Below are positions 4,550 to 21,205 of a DNA stretch of 64,000 bases, one piece after another; positions within the stretch are counted from its first letter, which is position 1; each line of letters begins with the position of its first letter. Location: contig NZ_FMHU01000002.1 in NCBI RefSeq assembly GCF_900091415.1, positions 62,001-126,000 on the forward strand. The letters run 5' to 3'. Under the pieces are notes generated by a model. The model ran no database searches, was not told the origin of the DNA, and was given only the letters and a program-made list of their open reading frames with translations. Source of the DNA: Micromonospora inyonensis. Its GTDB lineage: Bacteria; Actinomycetota; Actinomycetes; Mycobacteriales; Micromonosporaceae. Position numbers and translations under genes: made by a program.

Positions 4550-5542
4550 GTGCGGCAGGCAGTCACCGTCGCCGATGCGGCCGGGCTGGTGGCGGGGTAC
4601 GCGCTGGACGCGTTCCTCGGCGACCCGCGCCGCTGGCACCCGGTCGCCGGGTTCGGTCGGGCCGCCGGTGCCCTGGAACGACGCCTCTACCGTCCGGACC
4701 GGGTGGCGGGCGCGACGTTCACCGCGCTCGCGGTCGGGGTGCCCGTGCTGCTCGGCGCGGCGGGCGTGCTCGCCACCCGGCGGCGGCCGGTGGCCCGCGC
4801 GGTCCTGGTGGCGGCCGGCACCTGGACCGTGCTCGGCGGTCGTACCCTCCGCCACGAGGCCGAGGTGATGGGCCGGGCGCTGCGCGACGGCGACCTGCCG
4901 GCCGCCCGCCGTCGGCTCAGCCACCTCTGCGGACGCGACCCGTCCGTCCTGGACGAGTCGGAACTGGCCCGCGCCACCGTCGAGTCGGTCGCCGAGAACA
5001 CCTCCGACGCCGTGGTGGCACCGCTGTTCTGGGGTGCGGTCGCCGGGCTGCCCGGCCTGCTCGGCTACCGGGCGGCGAACACCCTGGACGCCATGGTCGG
5101 TCACCGCTCGGCCCGGTATGCCCGTTTCGGCACCCCCGCCGCCCGGCTGGACGACCTGCTCAACCTGGCTCCGGCACGCCTGACCGGGCTGCTCACCGTG
5201 GCCGTGGCCCCGGTGGCGCGCGGGGACCGGGAGCGGGCCTGGCACGTGTGGCGGCGGGACCGGAACGACCATCCGAGCCCCAACGCCGGGCAATGCGAGT
5301 CGGCCATGGCCGGGGCGCTCGGGGTGCGGCTGGGCGGGCGGAACGTCTACTTCGGACGCTCCGAGGTGCGACCGTTCCTCGGCGACGGCCCCCGGCCGGA
5401 GGGCCGGCACCTGCGCCGGGCGGCCCGGATCTCCGGGGCGGTCGGCCGGGCCGCACTCGGGCTGGCCGTCACCGTCGCGGTGGGCCGGGCGGTACTGGGC
5501 CGGGCGGCGGAGAACCGGCTACGGAGAGGGAGCGCGGCATGA
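4550..5542 (+). CDS. cobD: Adenosylcobinamide-phosphate synthase CobD/CbiB
   Basis: A membrane enzyme of about 330 residues that joins adenosylcobyric acid to aminopropanol phosphate (or aminopropanol) in the late B12 pathway. Family features are the N-terminal '[20 protein letters not shown]' segment, '[18 protein letters not shown]', '[14 protein letters not shown]' and the C-terminal '[19 protein letters not shown]', with several hydrophobic helices between them. GTG 4550 is chosen because GGAGG (4536-4540) lies 9 bases before it; an in-frame GTG at 4514 would add 12 residues. The stop overlaps the start of cobQ (ATGA), so the two are translationally coupled. Confidence 0.92.
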
Positions 5543-7080
5543 GCGGCGGACTGCTGGTCGCCGGCACCACCTCGGACGCCGGCAAGAGCGTGCTGACCGC
5601 CGGCATCTGCCGGTGGCTGCACCGCCGGGGCGTCAAGGTGGCGCCGTTCAAGGCGCAGAACATGTCCAACAACTCGGCTGTGGTCGTGGGGGCGGACGGC
5701 CGGGGCGGCGAGATCGGCCGGGCCCAGGCGATGCAGGCCGCCGCCTGCGGGCTCGCCCCGGACCTGCGCTTCAATCCGGTGCTGCTCAAGCCGGGCAGCG
5801 ACCTGGCGAGCCAGGTGGTGCTCCTCGGTGAGGCCGTCGACACGGTCACCGCCGGCAACTTCCGGGTGCTCCGTCCCCGGCTCGCCGAGACGGCGTGGGC
5901 CGCCCTGGCCGAACTGCGCATCGAGTACGACGTGGTGATCTGCGAGGGAGCCGGCAGCCCGGCCGAGATCAACCTGCGCGACGGCGACTACGTCAACATG
6001 GGGCTGGCCCGGCACGCCGGGCTGCCGGTGATCGTCGTCGGCGACATCGACCGGGGCGGGGTGTTCGCCTCGATGTTCGGCACGGTGGCCCTGCTGGACC
6101 CGGCCGACCAGGCACTCGTCGCCGGCTTCGTGGTCAACAAGTTCCGGGGCGACCTCGGCCTGCTCCAGCCCGGTCTGGACATGCTGGGTCAGGTGACCGG
6201 CCGCCCCACGTACGGGGTGCTGCCCTGGCACCTCGACCTCTGGCTGGACGCCGAGGACTCGCTCGCCTACGGCCGCGTCCTCGGCCGCCCGGCCGCCCCG
6301 TACGGCGACGAGTGGCTCGACGTGGCCGTCGTCCGGCTGCCCCGGGTCAGCAACGCCACCGACGTCGAGGCGCTCGCCACCGAGCCGGGGGTCCGGGTCC
6401 GGCTCACCGTCGAACCGGCCGAACTCGCCAGCGCCGACCTGGTCGTCCTGCCCGGCTCGAAGTCCACCGTGGCCGACCTGGCCTGGCTGCGGGAGAGCGG
6501 CCTCGCCGACGCGGTGCTCGCCCATGCGGCGGCGGGAAAGCCGCTGCTCGGCATCTGCGGCGGCTTCCAGATGCTCGGGCGGGCGATCCACGACCCGGTG
6601 GAGAGCCGGCGGGGCAGTGTTCCCGGGCTCGGCCTGCTGCCGATCGAGGTCACGTTCGACCCGCGCAAGACCGTCCGCCAGTCGGCCGGTGCCGCGTTCG
6701 ACGACGTCGAGGTCCGGGGCTACGAGATCCACCACGGTTACGTCTCCACCGCCGACCCGGACCTGCCCCCGCTGCTGACCTACGCCGACGGCCGGAGCGA
6801 GGGCGCCCTGCTCGGCGCGGTGTACGGCACGCACTGGCACGGGGCCTTCGAGTCGGACGGCTTCCGTCGCCGCTTCCTCGCCGAGGTGGCGCGGCAGGCC
6901 GGGCGGCGCGGATTCCGGCCGGCCCCGGCCACCTCCTTCGCCGCCGCTCGGGAACGCGGTCTCGACCTCCTCGGCGACCTGGTCGAGGAGCACCTGGACA
7001 CCGACGCCCTCTGGCGGCTCGTCGAGTCCGGCCCCCCGACCGGCCTGCCCTTCATCCCGCCGGGCGCCCCCGCCGGCTGA
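5539..7080 (+). CDS. cobQ: Cobyric acid synthase CobQ
   Basis: 513 residues, normal for the family. It carries out four ATP- and glutamine-dependent amidations (b, d, e, g side chains) of adenosylcobyrinate a,c-diamide. The N-terminal synthetase domain has the nucleotide-binding loop 'GTTSDAGKS' (residues 9-17) and '[13 protein letters not shown]'. The C-terminal glutaminase domain keeps the nucleophile Cys340 in '[10 protein letters not shown]' and a histidine in 'GTHWHG' (residues 432-434). GGAGAGGGAG precedes the ATG. The start overlaps cobD by 4 bases. This intact glutaminase contrasts with the degenerate one in the cobB-like gene at 13504. Confidence 0.95.
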
Positions 7081-7201: not shown

Positions 7202-7807
7202 GTGCCCACCCTGACCGCCCGGTGGTCGATCATCGGGATGTTGTTGCCGCTCTTCCTCGCCGGTTGCACGACCGGACCACGACGTTCGGCGTCGGAGGTT
7301 GCCAGCCCCACGCCGGCACGCGAGTACCGCCTCGTGGACGACCTCTGCGACCAGCTCGACCCCACCCACCTGACCACGCTGACCGGCATCCCGACCACGC
7401 AGACCAGATACCATCCGGTCCGCCCCGAGGCCCGGGACCGGCACCTGAGCTGCTGGTTGTCCACCCGCGACAAGGAAAACCTGTGGGTCTACAGCCTCCA
7501 GGTCGCCGTCACACTCGACCACACGGGGGATGCCGACCAGGAACGGACCCCGCAGCCCCCGGAGCGGGCCGTGCAGGGCCTGGGTGACCATGCGGTGATC
7601 CACGTCGGCGACACCCTCGCCGGGGAGCACCCCCTGCGGGAGGGGCAGCAGGTCCGGTCGCAGACGGGCACGCTCAGGGTCGTCCAGGGGCCGGTGGGCC
7701 TCCAGTTGCGCTGGACCGGTCACGGTGGAACCGCGCCGGCCGCCGTCGACGTCGAAGCACTCCTGACCGCGTACGGGCGGCAGACCCTCGAACTGCTCGG
7801 CGGCTGA
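7202..7807 (+). CDS. Putative secreted lipoprotein, function unknown
   Basis: From GTG 7202 the protein has 201 residues and starts with a lipoprotein signal peptide ending in the lipobox 'LFLAGC' (Cys22). The mature part is soluble, with two further cysteines ('DDLCDQL' and 'LSCWLST') that could pair. The layout resembles the small DUF3558-like lipoproteins common in actinobacteria, but that assignment is tentative. A CTGACA box at about 7174-7180 could be a -35 element for a nearly leaderless transcript. Starts at 7163 or 7109 are possible but would bury the signal peptide. It converges on the rhodanese gene. Confidence 0.65.
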   Translation: MPTLTARWSIIGMLLPLFLAGCTTGPRRSASEVASPTPAREYRLVDDLCDQLDPTHLTTLTGIPTTQTRYHPVRPEARDRHLSCWLSTRDKENLWVYSLQVAVTLDHTGDADQERTPQPPERAVQGLGDHAVIHVGDTLAGEHPLREGQQVRSQTGTLRVVQGPVGLQLRWTGHGGTAPAAVDVEALLTAYGRQTLELLGG

Positions 7808-7824
7808 CCCACCCAAGAGTCGCG

Positions 7825-7844
7825 CCTCCGGTGGTGCCCGGAGG
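7825..7844. terminator. Weak hairpin between convergent genes
   Basis: CCTCCGG (7825-7831) pairs with CCGGAGG (7838-7844) across a 6-base loop, midway between the lipoprotein and rhodanese stop codons. The short stem makes it only a candidate bidirectional terminator. Confidence 0.4.
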
Positions 7845-7848
7845 GTGC

Positions 7849-8265
7849 TCAGTGGCGGACGTCGGCGGGGTGGTCGGACATCGGCAGGCCCGCCGCCCGC
7901 CACGCCTCGACCCCACCGACCATGTCCGTCGCCCGGTGCAGCCCGAGCACCCGCAGGCTCGCCGCCGCCAGGCTGGAGGAGTAGCCCTGCCGGCACACCA
8001 CGACGACCTCCAGGTCGTACCCGGTGGCCTCGGGGATCCGCCAGGCGCTGGCCGGATCCAGCCGCCACTCCAGCACGGTCCGGTCGATCACCAGCACGCC
8101 GGGCAGCTCGCCCTGCTCGCGCCGCTGGAGGTCGGTACGGGTGTCGACCACGAGCGCTCCCCGGCCGGCGGCCTGGACCGTCTCGTGCGGGGTCAGTCGA
8201 CGCACGCCGGCCCGCGCCTGTTCGAGCAGGGCGTCGACGCCGGGACTCATCACGGAATGGGACAC
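7849..8265 (-). CDS. Rhodanese-domain protein
   Basis: A 138-residue single-domain rhodanese. It begins with a short helix, then 'ALVVDTRTDLQRREQGELPGVLVIDRTVLEWRL' and the active-site loop 'CRQGYSSSLAAASL', with the catalytic Cys followed by a six-residue loop, and ends with 'GGVEAWRAAGLP'. Rhodaneses transfer sulfane sulfur to cyanide or other thiols, and the stand-alone forms are often linked to sulfur trafficking. The GTG start at 8265 or the in-frame ATG at 8250 are both possible; 'AGGATCGGG' upstream favours 8265. The natural acceptor cannot be inferred from the context. Confidence 0.85.
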   Translation of the reverse strand: MSHSVMSPGVDALLEQARAGVRRLTPHETVQAAGRGALVVDTRTDLQRREQGELPGVLVIDRTVLEWRLDPASAWRIPEATGYDLEVVVVCRQGYSSSLAAASLRVLGLHRATDMVGGVEAWRAAGLPMSDHPADVRH

Positions 8266-12393: not shown

Positions 12394-12428
12394 CCGGCTC
12401 GGCGTGCGGGCCGGTCAGGCCGAGCCGG
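12394..12428. terminator. Hairpin between ligase and SURF1 genes
   Basis: CCGGCTCGGC (12394-12403) pairs perfectly with GCCGAGCCGG (12419-12428). It overlaps the last codons of the SURF1 gene and follows the ligase stop by 6 bases, so it can serve both convergent genes. Confidence 0.6.
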
Positions 12429-13290
12429 TCGGGGTGGGCTCCCCGGCCCGGTCACCCCGGGGACCGGTCGGACCGTCCCCCTCGGGGGTACCGTCGCCGG
12501 CGACCCGGTCGCCCGAGGGTCGGCGGACGCCGGCCAGCCGGCGTGCCTCCCGGCGGGCCACCCAGCCGTACGCGACCAGCGTCATCGCGGCGAAGAGCCA
12601 CCACTGCACCACGTAACCGAAGTTCTGCCAGTTGTTCTCATGCCGCACCGGCACCGCCTGGAAGACCGGATCGGCGGCCGGGGTCTGCTCGTCGAGCAGC
12701 AGGTACGCCCCGTGGAGCGGGTAGGGCAGTTCCCGGGCGAGCTGGGGTACGCCGATCCGGCGGGTCTCCAACCGGCCGTCGCGCCGCTCGACGCCGCCCG
12801 CCCCGCTCTCACTGAGCCGGACCCGGCCGACCACGGTCACCTCACCGCTCGGCGTGGCCGGCAGCTCGGGCCGCGCCGTCGCGTCCCCGCCGGGCGTGGG
12901 TGGCACCCAGCCCCGGTCCACCAGCACGGCTGAGCCGTCGGCCAGCAGCAGCGGGGTGACCAGCTCGAAACCGACCTGCCGTTCGACGCTGCGCCCCCGG
13001 ATCCAGACCGAGTTCGTCGTGTCGTACCGCCCGGTGACGGTGACCCGGGTCCAGACGGTCGCCGCGTCCGGCGCGGCTCCGGTCGAGCCGGCCGCTCCGG
13101 TCGGCGCGGCGAGCACGTCGGGCAGCGGCACGGGCGTCATCCGCGCGGTCGCGTCGATGCGCTCGTTGATCGCCGAGCGTCCCTGGTAACGGTCGAGCTG
13201 CCAGTTGCCGAGCTGCACCATGACCGCGGCGGCGACCAGCGCCAGGACGAGGTAACCCAGCCAGCGTGGCGTCAGGAGGAACCGGTACAC
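12415..13290 (-). CDS. SURF1-family cytochrome oxidase biogenesis protein
   Basis: 291 residues from GTG 13290. It has the two-helix topology of SURF1: an N-terminal membrane helix (residues ~10-30, 'LGYLVLALVAAAVMVQLGNWQL') and a second near residues 225-245 ('YVVQWWLFAAMTLVAYGW'). Between them lies the conserved periplasmic domain with 'DRGWVPP' and the family signature 'NNWQNFGYVVQWW'. SURF1 proteins help assemble the haem a/Cu centre of aa3-type cytochrome c oxidase. The C-terminal 45 residues are a Gly/Pro/Arg-rich tail specific to this lineage. Confidence 0.88.
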   Translation of the reverse strand: MYRFLLTPRWLGYLVLALVAAAVMVQLGNWQLDRYQGRSAINERIDATARMTPVPLPDVLAAPTGAAGSTGAAPDAATVWTRVTVTGRYDTTNSVWIRGRSVERQVGFELVTPLLLADGSAVLVDRGWVPPTPGGDATARPELPATPSGEVTVVGRVRLSESGAGGVERRDGRLETRRIGVPQLARELPYPLHGAYLLLDEQTPAADPVFQAVPVRHENNWQNFGYVVQWWLFAAMTLVAYGWVARREARRLAGVRRPSGDRVAGDGTPEGDGPTGPRGDRAGEPTPTGSA

Positions 13291-13503
13291 GCCCCGAGGC
13301 TACTCGTAGGACCGGAGCACCCGTCCCCGCCACCGGTGGACGGGTGAACGCGTGGCGGGGCGGTTACCGCCGTTCGGCGGAGTGGTTGGGTATCGTCACG
13401 CGGACGAACCGCCGGGCGGTGTCCGGGTCACCGTGGCACAACCGCCCGCGCGCCGCCACCGACCGTGCGCGTTCGCGCGTACCGCCGCCACGGAGGATGG
13501 ATC

Positions 13504-14913
13504 ATGAGCGTCGTGCCACGCCTCGTGGTCGCCGCGCCCTCGTCGGGGCACGGCAAGAACGCCGTCTCGATCGGCCTGGTCGCCGCCTTCCGGAAACGGG
13601 GGCTGGACGTCGCCGGGTTCAAGGTGGGGCCGGACCACGCCGACGCCGCGTACCTCGGGATGGCCGCCGACGGACGGCCGGGCCGCAACCTCGACCCGCG
13701 ACTGGTCGGGCCGGAACGTGTCGCCCCGCTCTTCGCGTACGGGGCGGCCGGGGCGAAGCTGGCCCTGGTGCAGGGCACGATGGGCCTCTACGACAGTGTC
13801 GCCGGACCGTCCGAGGTCGAGTCCACCGCGGCGGTCGCCACCGCGCTGCGCAGTCCGGTGGTGCTGGTGGTCGACGTGTCGGCGATGGGGCAGTCGCTGG
13901 CCGCCCTGGTGCACGGCTTCCGCTCGTACGACGAGCTGCTCTGGCTGGGCGGGGTGATCCTGAACCGGGTCGCCTCGCCCCGGCACGAGGAGCTGCTGCG
14001 GGAGGCACTCGACGACATCGGCGTCCCGGTCTTCGGGTCGCTGCGCCGGGGTGACCTGCCCCCGATGTTCCCGGCCCGGTCGTACGGGATGACGCCGGCG
14101 TTGACCGGTGACCCGGAGGTGACCCGGGCGGTCCGGCGGCTGGGGGAGGGGATCGCCGGCCGGGTCGACCTGGAGGGACTGCTCGGGCTGGCCCGCACCG
14201 CGCCGCCGCTGGCCGTCGAGCCCTGGTCGCCCGGTGCGCCGCCCCCTGTCGCCCCGGACCGCCCGGTGGTCGCGCTCGCCGGCACCGCCCGGGGCGCCTA
14301 CGGGTACCCCGAGACGGCGGAACTGCTCGCCGCCGCCGGGGCCGAGGTGGTCCCGGTGGACCCGCTCCGCGACGAGGCCCTGCCGGCGGGCACCGCCGCG
14401 CTGGTCGTCGGGGCGGGGCTTCCCGAGGCGTACGCCGAGCAGCTCTCCGCCAACGACCGGCTGCACGCGGCGGTGGCGGAGCTGGCCCGCGCCGGCCGTC
14501 CGGTGCTGGCGGAGGGGACGGGCCTGCTCTGGCTGGCCCGTCAGCTGGACGGCCGGCCGATGTGCGGGGTGCTCGACGCGACCGCCGCGACGCAGGAGGG
14601 CATGGTGCTGGGCTACCGGGAGGCGACGGCTGCGACGGAGAGCCTGGTGGCGCCCCGGGGTGCGGTACGGGTGGGCTACAAGCAGCACCGGGCGGTGCTC
14701 ACGCCCCGGGCCGGGGAGTGCCCGGCCTGGAGCTGGCCGGGTGGCCCGCCCGAGGGGCACGTCTGGTCCGGTGGGTACGCCTCACAGCTCGCCCTGCACT
14801 GGGCCGGCGCGCCGGAGATCGCCGCCCGGCTGGTGGCCGCCGCCCGGCGTGCCCCGGCACCGACCAGCCCCGGCCCCGCCCCGGCCGACCGCTCCCTGGG
14901 AGTCCCGGCGTGA
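13504..14913 (+). CDS. CobB/CbiA-like cobyrinate a,c-diamide synthase, active site degenerate
   Basis: 469 residues from ATG 13504 (GGAGGATGG upstream). The architecture matches CobB: an N-terminal dethiobiotin-synthetase-like ATP domain ('FKVGPD', 'GRPGRNLDPRL', 'GGVILNRVASPRHEELLREAL') and a C-terminal class I glutaminase-like domain ending 'YASQLALHWAG'. Key residues differ. The Walker A loop reads 'SSGHGKN', with Asn19 where Thr/Ser is expected, and the glutaminase elbow reads 'LAEGTGLLWL', with Gly338 where the catalytic Cys of 'AECGGL' belongs. Normal CobB amidates the a and c side chains of cobyrinate using glutamine. This copy could use free ammonia, have another role, or be decaying. 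It overlaps the next gene by four bases. Confidence 0.75.
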   Translation: MSVVPRLVVAAPSSGHGKNAVSIGLVAAFRKRGLDVAGFKVGPDHADAAYLGMAADGRPGRNLDPRLVGPERVAPLFAYGAAGAKLALVQGTMGLYDSVAGPSEVESTAAVATALRSPVVLVVDVSAMGQSLAALVHGFRSYDELLWLGGVILNRVASPRHEELLREALDDIGVPVFGSLRRGDLPPMFPARSYGMTPALTGDPEVTRAVRRLGEGIAGRVDLEGLLGLARTAPPLAVEPWSPGAPPPVAPDRPVVALAGTARGAYGYPETAELLAAAGAEVVPVDPLRDEALPAGTAALVVGAGLPEAYAEQLSANDRLHAAVAELARAGRPVLAEGTGLLWLARQLDGRPMCGVLDATAATQEGMVLGYREATAATESLVAPRGAVRVGYKQHRAVLTPRAGECPAWSWPGGPPEGHVWSGGYASQLALHWAGAPEIAARLVAAARRAPAPTSPGPAPADRSLGVPA

Positions 14914-15479
14914 TCGGTCAGGTGGCGGTGCGCCGGTTCCCGGAGCTGACCGTCTCCACTCCGCGCACGGAGGTACGCCGGCACACTGCGGGGGACGCCG
15001 ACCCGGTCTCGGAGATCTTCGCGGACCGGTTGACCCAGCGCTGGCTGCCGTTGGCCGACGAGTCGGGGCAGATCGACGGGCTGGCCTGGTGCACCGACCT
15101 GGCTCGGCAGCGGCGGGACAGTGGCGACGGCGACCACTTCGCGGTGGTCCGCCGGGAGGACGCCCGGGTGGTCGGCTGTCTCTGGACCAGGCGGACCGAC
15201 TGGGGTGCCCGGCTGACCGAGGTCTCGTACGCGATGGCGCCGGAGGCACGCGGCTACGGCCTGGCGACGGAGGCGGTCCTCGCGCTGGCCATCGCGCTGA
15301 TCCTGGAGCACGGGTTCCAGCGGGTCGAGCTGCGGGTCGCCCCGGGCAACGTGGCGTCCCGGCGGGTGGCCGAGAAGGCCGGCTTCAGCTACGAGGGCCT
15401 GCTGCGCAACGCCGGTTACGTCCGGGGCAACCGCGTCGACCTGGAACTCTGGTCATTCGTCATGGCCGACCTCCACTGA
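14910..15479 (+). CDS. GNAT-family N-acetyltransferase (RimJ/RimL-like)
   Basis: 189 residues from GTG 14910, overlapping the cobB-like stop (GTGA) with GGGAG just upstream. The GNAT core is clear: 'TEVSYAMAPEARGYGLATEAVLALAIALI' contains the acetyl-CoA pyrophosphate loop (R-G-Y-G-L-A), followed by 'VELRVAPGNVASRRVAEKAGFSYEGLLRN', typical of RimJ/RimL-type enzymes that acetylate protein or small-molecule amines. The translational coupling to the cobB-like gene suggests co-expression, not necessarily a B12 role. Confidence 0.85.
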   Translation: MIGQVAVRRFPELTVSTPRTEVRRHTAGDADPVSEIFADRLTQRWLPLADESGQIDGLAWCTDLARQRRDSGDGDHFAVVRREDARVVGCLWTRRTDWGARLTEVSYAMAPEARGYGLATEAVLALAIALILEHGFQRVELRVAPGNVASRRVAEKAGFSYEGLLRNAGYVRGNRVDLELWSFVMADLH

Positions 15480-17775: not shown

Positions 17776-18861
17776 ATGCGTGGTCAGCCGATCGGAGCGC
17801 CCCTGGGCGTCGTGCCGGAACCCGACCTCGGCCACCACGGTGACGTCGAGGTCGGCGAGGGCCTGGTCGACCTCGCGGTCAACGTCCGCCGGGCCCCGAT
17901 GCCACCCTGGCTGGCCGGGCCGCTGGCCACCTCCCTCGGCGACCTCGCCCGCTACCCCGACCCCGCCCCGGCCCGCGCTGCGGTCGCCGCCCGGCACCGC
18001 CGGCCCCCGGCGGAGGTGCTGCTCACCGCCGGGGCTGCCGAGGGTTTCGTGCTGATCGCGCAGGCCCTGCGCGGGGTGCGCCGGCCGGTGGTGGTGCACC
18101 CGCAGTTCACCGAGCCGGAGGCCGCACTCGCCGCCGCCGGGCACGAGGTGGAGCGGGTGCTGCTCGACGCGGCCGACGGGTTCCGCCTCGACCCGGCCCG
18201 GGTGCCCGCCGACGCCGACCTGGTCATGGTCGGCAACCCCACCAACCCGACATCCGTGCTGCACCCGGCCGCGACCATCGCCGCGCTGGCCCGGCCCGGC
18301 CGGGTCCTGGTGGTGGACGAGGCGTTCGCCGACACCACCGCCGCACCCGGGGTGCCGGGGGAGCCGGAGTCGCTCGCCGGGCGGCGTGACCTGCCCGGCC
18401 TGCTGGTGCTGCGCAGCCTCACCAAGACCTGGGGGCTGGCCGGCCTGCGGATCGGCTACCTGCTCGGCGGCGCCGCCCTGGTGGACCGGCTGGCCCGGGT
18501 GCAGCCGCTCTGGGCGGTCTCCACCCCGGCGCTGGCCGCCGCGACTGCCTGCGCCGCGCCGGAGGCGGTCGCCGCCGAACGCGCCATCGCCGCGGGCCTC
18601 GCCGCCGACCGCGACCATCTGCTGGCCCGCCTCGCCACCCTTCCCGGGGTACGCGTCGCGGGCCGACCGGCCAGCGCGTTCGTGCTGCTGGAGATCCCCG
18701 GCGCGGACCGGACCCGGCTCGCCCTGCGGGACCGGGGCTGGGCCGTACGCCGGGGCGACACCTTCCCCGGGCTCGGCCCGGACTGGCTGCGCGTGGCGGT
18801 CCGCGACCGGCGGACCACCGACGCGTTCGTCGAAGCGCTGGCGGACATCCTGGAGGCGTGA
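17776..18861 (+). CDS. cobC: CobC-like pyridoxal-phosphate aminotransferase/decarboxylase
   Basis: 361 residues of fold-type I PLP enzyme: substrate-binding N-terminus with 'VDLAVNVRRAPMPPWL', 'LTAGAAEGFVLIAQAL', 'VGNPTNPTSVL', 'VVDEAFAD' and the Schiff-base lysine in 'RSLTKTWGLAGLRIGY'. It groups with CobC/CobD L-threonine-O-3-phosphate decarboxylase-like proteins (Rv2231c type), which supply the aminopropanol linker. Position directly before cobT and cobA, with a one-base overlap (TGATG), supports a B12 role. A histidinol-phosphate aminotransferase-like function is the alternative. Confidence 0.82.
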   Translation: MRGQPIGAPLGVVPEPDLGHHGDVEVGEGLVDLAVNVRRAPMPPWLAGPLATSLGDLARYPDPAPARAAVAARHRRPPAEVLLTAGAAEGFVLIAQALRGVRRPVVVHPQFTEPEAALAAAGHEVERVLLDAADGFRLDPARVPADADLVMVGNPTNPTSVLHPAATIAALARPGRVLVVDEAFADTTAAPGVPGEPESLAGRRDLPGLLVLRSLTKTWGLAGLRIGYLLGGAALVDRLARVQPLWAVSTPALAAATACAAPEAVAAERAIAAGLAADRDHLLARLATLPGVRVAGRPASAFVLLEIPGADRTRLALRDRGWAVRRGDTFPGLGPDWLRVAVRDRRTTDAFVEALADILEA

Positions 18862-19955
18862 TGTTGGAGACCACGATCGCGGCGATCGGCCCCCTCGACC
18901 AGACGGCGACGGCCGCCGCCCGGGACCTCCAGTCCCGGTTGACCAAGCCGGCCGGCTCCCTCGGCGCCCTGGAGGACCTCTCGATCCGCCTCGCCGGCCT
19001 GGCCGGCACCTGCCCGCCGCCGCTGCCCGAACCGGCCGCGGTGGCGATCTTCGCGGGCGACCACGGCGTCCACGCCCAGGGGGTCACCCCCTGGCCGCAG
19101 GAGGTCACTGCGCAGATGATCGGCAACTTCCTGGCCGGCGGGGCGGTGGTGAACGCCTTCGCCCGCCAGGCCGGCGCCTCGGTCACCGTGGTCGACGTCG
19201 GCGTGGCCACCCCGCTGCCGCCCGCCGTCGCCGACGGGCCGGACGTCCCCCGGCCGGTGGCGGCGGACGCCCCCCGGCTGGTCGAGGCCCGGATCCGCCC
19301 CGGCACCCGCGACCTGACCGTCACCGCCGCGCTCACCCGGGACGAGGCGCGGGCGGCGGTGGAGACCGGCATCCGGGTCGCCGACGAACTGATCGCGGCG
19401 GGCGCGGGCATCCTGCTCACCGGGGACATGGGCATCGGCAACACCACCCCGTCGGCCGCCCTGGTCGCCGCCTTCACCGGGGCCGACCCGGCCGAGGTGA
19501 CCGGCCGGGGCACCGGCGTCGACGACGAGACGTACCAGCGGAAGATGGACGTGGTGCGGCGCGCGCTGCGCCGGCACCGACCCGACCCGGCCGACCCGCT
19601 CGGTGCGCTCGCCGCCGTCGGTGGCCTGGAGCACGCCGCGCTGGCCGGATTGATCCTGGCCGCCGCGGCCCGCCGCATCCCGGTGCTGCTGGACGGCGTG
19701 ATCGCGGTCTCCGCCGCGCTCGCCGCCGCCGCGTTCGCCCCGGACGCGGTGGGCGCGATGGTCGCCGGGCACCGCTCCACCGAACCGGGTGCCACCGTCG
19801 CGCTGCGCCACCTCGGGCTCGACCCCCTGATCGACCTTGGCCTACGTCTCGGTGAGGGCACCGGCGCGCTGCTCGCCCTGCCGGTGGTGACCGGGGCGGC
19901 CCGGGTGCTGCACGAGGTGGCCACGTTCGACGCGGCAGGAGTGGCCGAGAAGTGA
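18861..19955 (+). CDS. cobT: Nicotinate-nucleotide-dimethylbenzimidazole phosphoribosyltransferase CobT
   Basis: 364 residues. CobT activates the lower-ligand base by transferring ribose phosphate from nicotinate mononucleotide to 5,6-dimethylbenzimidazole. Family motifs: 'LTKPAGSLGALEDLSIRLAGL' near the start, 'IFAGDHGVHAQGVTPWPQEVTAQM', 'GDMGIGNTTPSAAL' and the C-terminal 'LDLGLRLGEGTGALLALPVV', whose Glu is the catalytic base. ATG 18861 overlaps the previous stop by one base with GGAGG at 18852-18856; GTG 18858 is an alternative start. It is translationally coupled on both sides (GTGA overlap with the next gene). Confidence 0.95.
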   Translation: MLETTIAAIGPLDQTATAAARDLQSRLTKPAGSLGALEDLSIRLAGLAGTCPPPLPEPAAVAIFAGDHGVHAQGVTPWPQEVTAQMIGNFLAGGAVVNAFARQAGASVTVVDVGVATPLPPAVADGPDVPRPVAADAPRLVEARIRPGTRDLTVTAALTRDEARAAVETGIRVADELIAAGAGILLTGDMGIGNTTPSAALVAAFTGADPAEVTGRGTGVDDETYQRKMDVVRRALRRHRPDPADPLGALAAVGGLEHAALAGLILAAAARRIPVLLDGVIAVSAALAAAAFAPDAVGAMVAGHRSTEPGATVALRHLGLDPLIDLGLRLGEGTGALLALPVVTGAARVLHEVATFDAAGVAEK

Positions 19956-21205
19956 GCGAGCGAACCACCGGACTCGGTAGCGTGAACCCGTACCCGCTGG
20001 GCCTGCGGCTGGCCGGTCGGCGGGTGGTCGTGGTCGGTGGGGGCACGGTCGCCACCCGCCGGGTGCCGGCGCTGCTGGACGCCGGTGCGGACGTCCTGCT
20101 GGTCTCCCCGGAACTCACCCCGGCGTTGCGGGCGCACGTGGACGCCGGCCGGCTGCACTGGGAGCCGCGTCGCTTCGTCCCGGCCGACCTGAACGGGGCG
20201 TGGCTGGTGCACGTGGCCGTGGACGACCGGGCCGCCGCCGCGGCGGTCAGCGCCGTGGCCGCCGAACGACGGATCTTCTGCGTCCGCGCCGACGACCGGT
20301 TCGCCGCCAGCGCCTGGACCCCCGCGGTGACCCGGCACGGCCCGGTCACCGTCGCCGTGCTCGGTGGCGGGGACCCGCACCGCTCGCGGGCGACCCGCGA
20401 CGCCGTCCGCGCGTTGCTGGACGGCCCGGACAGTCCCCTGCGGACGGGAGCCGGGGCGGCGGGGACCCGGCGGCGGGGCGGGCAGGTGGCCCTGGTGGGG
20501 GCGGGGCCGGGCGACGCCGAGCTGATCACCCTGCGGGGCTGGCGGCTGCTCGCCAGGGCCGACGTGGTGGTCGCCGACCGGCTGGTCCCCGGACTGCTCC
20601 TCGACGAGTTGCATCCCGACGTGGAGCTGGTCGACGCCTCGAAGATCCCGTATGGGCCGTCCCGGACCCAGGAGGAGATCAACCGGATCCTGGTGGACCG
20701 GGCGTCGGCGGGCGCGTTCGTGGTCCGGCTCAAGGGCGGCGACCCCTACGTCTTCGGCCGGGGCGGCGAGGAGCTGCTGGCCTGCGCGGCGGCCGGCATA
20801 CCGGTGACCGTGGTCCCCGGCGTGACCAGCTCGATCGCCGTTCCGGCGGTGGCCGGCATCCCGGTCACCCACCGGGGGGTGGCCCACGAGTTCACCGTGG
20901 TCTCCGGGCACCTCGCCCCGGACCACCCGGAGTCCCGGGTCAACTGGCCGGCACTGGCCGCGCTGCGGGGCACGTTGGTGATCCTGATGGGGCTGAAGAA
21001 CCTGGCGGCGGTCACCGCCACGCTGCTCGCGCACGGGCGGGACCCGGCCACCCCGGCGGCGGTGGTGCAGGAGGGGACGACCACCGACCAGCGGACCCTG
21101 CGCGCCACCCTCGCCACGGTGGCGGCGGAGGCGGCCGGGGCTGGCCTGCGGCCCCCGGCCGTGGTGGTCGTCGGCGACGTGGTCACCGCCCTCGACCGCT
21201 CCTGA
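19952..21205 (+). CDS. cobA: Uroporphyrinogen-III C-methyltransferase fused to SirC-like dehydrogenase
   Basis: 417 residues. Residues ~15-130 are a Rossmann domain ('VVVVGGGTVATRRVPALLDAGADVLLV') like precorrin-2 dehydrogenase (SirC/CysG-N). Residues ~170-415 are the SAM-dependent methyltransferase, with 'ALVGAGPGDAELITLRG', 'RLKGGDPYVFGRGGEE', 'VVPGVTSSIAVPAVAGIPVTHRG' and 'TLVILMGLKNL'. The pair makes precorrin-2 from uroporphyrinogen III and can oxidise it to sirohydrochlorin, feeding B12 and sirohaem. This is a CysG-like fusion; whether the ferrochelatase step is also done here cannot be told. It overlaps cobT by 4 bases. Confidence 0.92.
   Translation: MSERTTGLGSVNPYPLGLRLAGRRVVVVGGGTVATRRVPALLDAGADVLLVSPELTPALRAHVDAGRLHWEPRRFVPADLNGAWLVHVAVDDRAAAAAVSAVAAERRIFCVRADDRFAASAWTPAVTRHGPVTVAVLGGGDPHRSRATRDAVRALLDGPDSPLRTGAGAAGTRRRGGQVALVGAGPGDAELITLRGWRLLARADVVVADRLVPGLLLDELHPDVELVDASKIPYGPSRTQEEINRILVDRASAGAFVVRLKGGDPYVFGRGGEELLACAAAGIPVTVVPGVTSSIAVPAVAGIPVTHRGVAHEFTVVSGHLAPDHPESRVNWPALAALRGTLVILMGLKNLAAVTATLLAHGRDPATPAAVVQEGTTTDQRTLRATLATVAAEAAGAGLRPPAVVVVGDVVTALDRS

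Follow-up and report, generated by a model that had tools for sequence, protein, structure and literature searches.

CobB/CbiA, the cobyrinate a,c-diamide synthase, joins a synthetase half to a class I glutamine amidotransferase (GATase) half. Two members of its superfamily, CfbB (the Ni-sirohydrochlorin a,c-diamide synthase) and DsrN (siroheme amidation), act on other tetrapyrroles and are described as amidases, with CfbB using glutamine and ATP (PMC7242693, PMC10504309). In the related GATase GatD, whose Cys/His dyad has been aligned to CobB and CobQ, the C94A and H189A variants are reported as inactive (PMC5871853), and changing C94 to glycine eliminated lipid II amidation (PMC6085368). A literature search found, going by titles and abstract openings, no description of a CobB without this cysteine. 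Here we describe such a protein from Micromonospora, a CobB paralogue of the same superfamily that has the two-domain order of CobB/CbiA, shares 101 conserved canonical positions with it and carries the same database name. Unlike CobB/CbiA it lacks the Cys, the motif His and E393, occurs without corrin synthesis and, in Micromonospora, replaces the canonical P-loop and E90 with Q90 and an altered loop (N19 in the protein studied here). It differs likewise from MurT/GatD, in which GatD has a catalytic Cys and His and the synthetase MurT is separate, and from CobBC fusions (NF053748), which have a CobC domain and an elbow Cys.

The gene lies in the window, a stretch of 64,000 nucleotides from Micromonospora inyonensis (contig NZ_FMHU01000002.1, positions 62,001 to 126,000), whose features are collected in Table 1. 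An SD-like ggagg at 13492-13496 precedes its ATG by seven bases. The protein scores above the cut-off of the curated NCBIfam equivalog PRK01077/NF002204 (337.6 bits, cut-off 254), just below that of TIGR00379 (253.6 bits, cut-off 261.4) and far below that of the CfbB model NF033195 (234.6 bits, cut-off 560). Its top NCBIfam score, 451.5 bits, goes to the CobBC fusion model NF053748 and falls below the cut-off of 950; the match spans only profile positions 1-454 of 797, and the window protein has no CobC domain. Pfam recognizes CbiA (62.4 bits), AAA_26 (28.8) and, weakly, GATase_3 (31.1, cut-off 27), with the P-loop half preceding the GATase_3 half. The closest named proteins among the matches listed are 84-92% identical and come from Micromonospora. 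Solved structures include no relative by sequence for window-type proteins (P0001, A1), the only matches having E values of 0.1 or worse.

Table 1. Features of the window around the CobB paralogue, in window coordinates.
Feature	Coordinates	Strand	Basis or remark
Class A CobB paralogue (glutaminase-free)	13504..14913	+	469 aa, ATG start; ORF and NCBIfam/Pfam matches
Altered P-loop PSSGHGKNA, residues 12-20; N19 for Thr	13537..13563	+	motif reading and alignment
Q90 for canonical CobB Glu (QGTMGLYD for EGVMGL)	13771..13773	+	E in 55/55 canonical non-redundant rows
G338 for nucleophilic Cys of GATase_3 elbow	14515..14517	+	alignment and AlphaFold model
K393 for Glu of GHExH motif	14680..14682	+	K in 42/42 class A; E in 54/55 canonical non-redundant rows
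A430 at first His of canonical LHxH	14791..14793	+	H in 0/42 class A and 55/55 canonical non-redundant rows
SURF1, divergent neighbour of class A	12415..13290	-	found so in 80/80 named loci
GNAT acetyltransferase, likely GTG start at 14910 overlapping class A stop	14910..15479	+	also in most stretches without class A
CobQ, Cys340 intact	5539..7080	+	
CbiB/CobD, lower B12 pathway	4550..5542	+	
CobC, CobT and CysG-like protein (uroporphyrinogen-III methyltransferase with N-terminal siroheme-synthase domain)	17776..21205	+	NCBIfam

Both active sites of the window protein are altered. An earlier note on this DNA had read Gly338 at the nucleophile position and Asn19 in the P-loop as true substitutions in an otherwise intact family frame, in the same window as a CobQ that keeps its cysteine. 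These readings hold: coordinates, strand and residue numbering agree (LAEGTGLLWL begins at residue 335 and SSGHGKN at residue 13, which makes residue 338 a glycine and residue 19 an asparagine), and CobQ does retain Cys340. The AlphaFold model, of middling quality (mean pLDDT 70.2, pTM 0.75, built on a ten-sequence alignment, with residues 1-20 near 56-61), predicts a strand-loop-helix at the P-loop and a strand-elbow-helix over residues 334-345, with G338 at the turn between strand 334-337 and helix 339-345, a frame that points to substitution rather than misalignment. Nor does the elbow hold a cysteine elsewhere, the only two in the protein being Cys354 and Cys406. Three changes go beyond those the note had listed, namely Q90, K393 and A430 in place of the first His of the HxH motif. 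That first His is invariant in canonical CobB and the second varies (HLNW, HTAW); we take position 430, by the motif [GA][TS]xxH, to be that of the catalytic or triad His of the glutaminase. The equivalent of Glu90 reportedly has a role in metal or ATP binding, according to work on Salmonella CbiA. Because both the Cys and the His are lost, and the corresponding GatD mutants are inactive, glutamine-dependent chemistry would not be expected of the window protein.

These changes define a clade. Across 61 relatives and 150 genomes of the family we found two kinds of CobB, the window's kind, here called class A, and the canonical kind. Some genomes were counted twice among the 158 class A and 73 canonical loci, which reduce at 85% identity to 42 and 55 non-redundant rows. 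The nucleophile position holds Gly in 143, Ser in 9 and Asn in 6 of the 158 class A loci, never Cys, and Cys in all 73 canonical loci; because the two sets are each without exception, we dismiss chance or sequencing error as the source of G338. Loci were classed partly after their motifs had been seen, and the independent check is a 79-row tree in which the 33 class A rows it covers form a single clade (support 100/100, stem 0.49) among the canonical CobBs of the order. The nearest neighbours of this clade are weakly supported (92/78), and the canonical CobB of the window's own genome falls elsewhere in the tree. Two database searches returned 5303 and 7717 matches; of the 235 proteins gathered from the best 120 of each list, the window's own counted, 234 lack the Cys, and P0228, the one that has it, matches canonical CobB at all other sites examined. 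In these same best 120 of each list, every match bears a database name that is some form of cobyrinate or hydrogenobyrinate a,c-diamide synthase.

Class A also differs outside its catalytic residues. Of the positions that are conserved across 90% or more of the canonical rows, it keeps 101, switches 7 and relaxes 45, and 21 further positions, the start Met included, carry residues that are invariant in class A and rare in canonical rows. Residue 48, canonically Pro, is Ala in 38 and Ser in 4 of the 42 class A rows, and residue 51, canonically His, is Leu in all 42. D44 and D47 are invariant in 42/42 rows, even those with an altered P-loop. Three class A ORFs from Actinoplanes, Asanoa and another genus carry a long low-complexity C-terminal tail that the window protein lacks (L131 9998-12565, L112 10001-12769 and L208 9244-12921; 855, 922 and 1225 aa in total); being low in complexity and variable, these tails were rejected as a conserved domain. 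Derivation of class A from a CobBC fusion was also rejected, since the fusions have the Cys: it stands at the elbow in 22 of the 22 readable among 23 full-length fusion loci, and the alignment places a Cys in the 23rd (L047) too.

Structure comparison places the protein less sharply than sequence does. The best solved Foldseek matches of the predicted model are CTP synthases, aligned over about 584 columns with a TM score of only 0.35 and an rmsd of about 16 A, which means that the domains do not overlay together as a rigid unit; the matches also include GatD chains (TMt 0.49-0.53). Such matches are what a predicted synthetase plus class I GATase should give. Sequence places the window protein in the wider CobB superfamily, as does, less firmly, its modelled fold.

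Class A is distributed, by gene content, independently of corrin synthesis. We profiled 60 genomes, 39 from Micromonospora and 21 from other genera, most of the latter picked for having one or no CobB and thus a non-random sample. CobN is present in 24 of the 60 and CobH in 22, with CobH in none of the 36 genomes without CobN. Canonical CobB follows this pattern (22/24 genomes with CobN, the exceptions G010 and G016 being fragmented drafts, and 0/36 without), and class A does not (20/24 with CobN, 31/36 without). Within Micromonospora, CobN, CobH and canonical CobB are missing together from 18 of the 39 genomes; class A is present in 17 of those 18. The single-contig genome G353 carries class A with no match to CobN, CobH, CobQ, CbiB or CobC. 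Across the 51 carriers, several of them drafts, CobC has no match in 6, CbiB in 8 and CobQ in 5; conversely, 9 of the 60 genomes lack class A, and CobC, CbiB and CobQ are all present in 7 of those 9. As a separate observation, CobQ and CbiB are kept in 17 of the 18 Micromonospora genomes without CobN, CobH and canonical CobB, which suggests salvage from a corrinoid intermediate; both are absent only in the draft G001, and CobQ of G007 lies in two frames.

The host range appears narrow. Against 249 genomes of the order, the class A profile reached 730 bits or more at 35 places, every one of them in Micromonosporaceae, and the next matches scored no higher than 662 bits; the 20 lower-scoring places that we checked (17 in other families, 3 in Micromonosporaceae) all have the Cys. 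Named hosts include Micromonospora, Actinoplanes, Asanoa, Phytohabitans, Stackebrandtia, Actinocatenispora and Phytomonospora. Among the genomes and matches examined, class A was seen only in Micromonosporaceae, and rare Cys-less members may exist outside the family.

The window's own genome carries a second, intact CobB. The earlier note had proposed, as one way out, that a different CobB, encoded elsewhere, serves B12 synthesis, and as far as sequence allows this is borne out. The second protein (G000:C2:2241822-2243207) is 48% identical to the window protein, retains the motifs GKTT, EGVMGL, AECAGLLYL and ASYLHVHW, and is fused to a CobA domain in a 749-aa frame (L286 5470-7716) that adjoins CobO and a ChlID-like chelatase (765.8 bits, below the cut-off of 779.45). 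CobI-CobJ, CobH, CobN, CobO, a CbiE-type CobL, CobM and CobF score above their cut-offs nearby, a CobG-like gene falls below its own (192.8 bits, cut-off 234.8), and no gene was identified for CobK in this cluster. Directly 5' of CobN sits a cobalamin riboswitch (RF00174, L285 11388-11464; 37.7 bits, gathering score 31.5). As judged from these matches, the genome has a near-complete aerobic B12 cluster with an intact CobB. In another genome, G022, which is a single contig, the canonical CobB (G022:C1:5135109-5136478) is seemingly in two frames, through a frameshift or a sequencing error.

The neighbours of class A say little about its function, because gene order is much the same where class A is absent. 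SURF1 lies divergent from class A at 69-367 bases in each of the 80 named loci, and, with loci cut by contig ends included, CobC is in view in 75 and GNAT in 42. Among 20 SURF1-centred stretches taken from genomes presumed to be without class A, 19 did not have it, with gene order mostly unchanged, and one (L279) did. Class A is thus a gene gained or lost within an old gene order. We therefore rejected a functional link to SURF1, whose constant adjacency is uninformative when the order persists without class A, and GNAT as a functional partner, since it is present at only about half of the named loci and also where class A is missing. Rfam reports no family at gathering score in the window, hence no cobalamin riboswitch at the class A paralogue, and only three tRNAs in seven other class A loci; at 15141-15223 a c-di-GMP-II match scored below the gathering threshold, and we took it as chance. 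Some loci hold extra genes. In L207 a small ORF beside SURF1 (7709-8074) resembles an IS200-type transposase by a putative motif, and one further ORF separates it from the class A paralogue. In L197 5759-9236 (G356) and L198 10714-15175 (G375), four to five same-strand genes, some ABC-transporter-like by eye, lie between class A and the PBP gene.

Class A is maintained, though less strictly than the genes around it. By NG86, over 2700 non-independent pairs with dS of 0.1-0.7, its dN/dS has a median of 0.315 and a maximum of 0.587; it stands at 0.286 within the 58 Micromonospora-type loci (1642 pairs) and at 0.341 within 22 others, with values alike in both halves of the protein. Stops occur in 5 of 81 aligned rows, all at codons 456-464, the natural end, and none early. 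This pattern indicates purifying selection on a gene that is not decaying. Class A is less constrained than the surrounding enzymes: CobQ stands at 0.179, CbiB 0.193, M20 0.198, the ligase 0.2, CysG 0.216, GNAT 0.219, CobT 0.258, PBP 0.26 and CobC 0.282, with SURF1 higher at 0.423.

The two active sites seem to have been given up at different times. Of 133 non-redundant class A proteins, 99 keep GKT (with E90 in 97, D90 in 1 and K90 in 1), and the 34 with Q90 read KN (18), TN (7), TG (4), TS (3), TT (1) or KS (1), so that GK[ST] is lost in 33 of them. By locus, 39/39 in Micromonospora combine Q90 with a P-loop without GK[ST], and 14/14 in other genera keep GKT (E90 in 13, K90 in 1); exceptions elsewhere are L206 (GKS with E90) and L207 (GKT with A90). 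A quick tree explains Q90 by one change (support 95), K18T by two and loss of T/S at residue 19 by five. E90Q has a single origin, in the Micromonospora lineage, where the ATP site seems to have been given up later than the glutaminase.

Contrary to the database names, cobyrinate a,c-diamide synthase is most likely not what the window protein is, as class A occurs with or without CobN, even in G353. It should not be filed under that name, since the tests of Cys, His and P-loop fail. We regard it as highly improbable that cobyrinate a,c-diamide is still its product, with ammonia replacing glutamine. The many canonical positions kept in the synthetase half and the above-cut-off match to NF002204 speak for such an enzyme; against it stand the CobN-less carriers, none of which has CobH, the intact CobB of the same genome, and N19, Q90, A48 and L51 at sites invariant in 55/55 canonical rows. 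A broader form of the idea is that class A in most genera would be an ATP-dependent carboxylate ligase that adds free ammonia or another amine to a tetrapyrrole or other acid, with Micromonospora as a side branch that degenerated later. Either glutamine or ammonia reportedly serves CobB (PMC8123684), and the 97 of 133 proteins with GKT and E90, together with the invariant D44 and D47, agree with ATP use in the wider clade; conservation within Micromonospora despite the altered ATP site is left unexplained, and we consider this reading unlikely. The earlier note's proposal of free ammonia accordingly divides: such use is unlikely for the window protein with its N19/Q90 site and possible for GKT/E90 relatives in other genera. 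Its alternative of another substrate or a regulatory role is favoured, as class A persists in genomes without CobN and CobH.

Two other readings start from the locus and from the lost residues. A partner or scaffold of the nearby lower B12 pathway (CobQ, CbiB, CobC, CobT) would account for CobC being in view at most named loci, and is very unlikely given the carriers that lack CobC, CbiB or CobQ (several of them drafts), the single-contig G353 without all three, the 7 of 9 non-carriers that have them and the similar gene order where class A is missing. A decaying pseudogene or sequencing artefact would explain the lost active sites; the low dN/dS in Micromonospora-type loci, the lack of early stops and the 158 concordant loci make its chances close to negligible. 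The reading that we prefer is a CobB paralogue that would have abandoned glutamine chemistry, with nucleophile Cys and motif His gone throughout the sampled clade. In the Micromonospora lineage, where the P-loop and Glu90 are altered too, it would neither hydrolyse glutamine nor use ATP normally, and the window protein would act through binding: a sensor, a carrier or a partner protein built on the CobB fold. Class A is thus probably retained for some function that is not cobyrinate a,c-diamide synthesis, and would be non-catalytic in Micromonospora. Several findings count against this: class A is dispensable in relatives, its dN/dS exceeds that of surrounding enzymes, NF002204 is matched above cut-off, D44 and D47 do not vary even in proteins with an altered P-loop, and the ATP-site residues (GKT with E90) retained by most of the wider clade favour ATP use there.

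By analogy, the ligand of such a binding protein would most likely be a tetrapyrrole, because the characterised CobB-type amidases (CobB/CbiA, CfbB and DsrN) act on tetrapyrroles; we name it tentatively. A tetrapyrrole-binding or regulatory role would be the most economical reading for the window protein. A more speculative view, which we think rather doubtful, makes class A a fourth tetrapyrrole branch beside CobB/CbiA, CfbB and DsrN: ATP-dependent and glutaminase-free in most carriers, with a new reaction or a switch, and an ATP-less ligand-binding regulator or carrier in Micromonospora.

These results bear on annotation and on enzyme evolution. The label cobyrinate a,c-diamide synthase is probably misleading for class A. 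Work on environmental DNA has taken cbiA/cobB as a marker, and its reported frequency is 46% among predicted precursor salvagers and 2.6% among predicted non-producers (PMC6461909); class A-like paralogues could add to such false positives. The lineage looks like a natural two-step loss of active sites, the glutaminase first and the ATP site later, with both stages extant and under selection. Such a series makes the leftover role of a pseudoenzyme directly testable.
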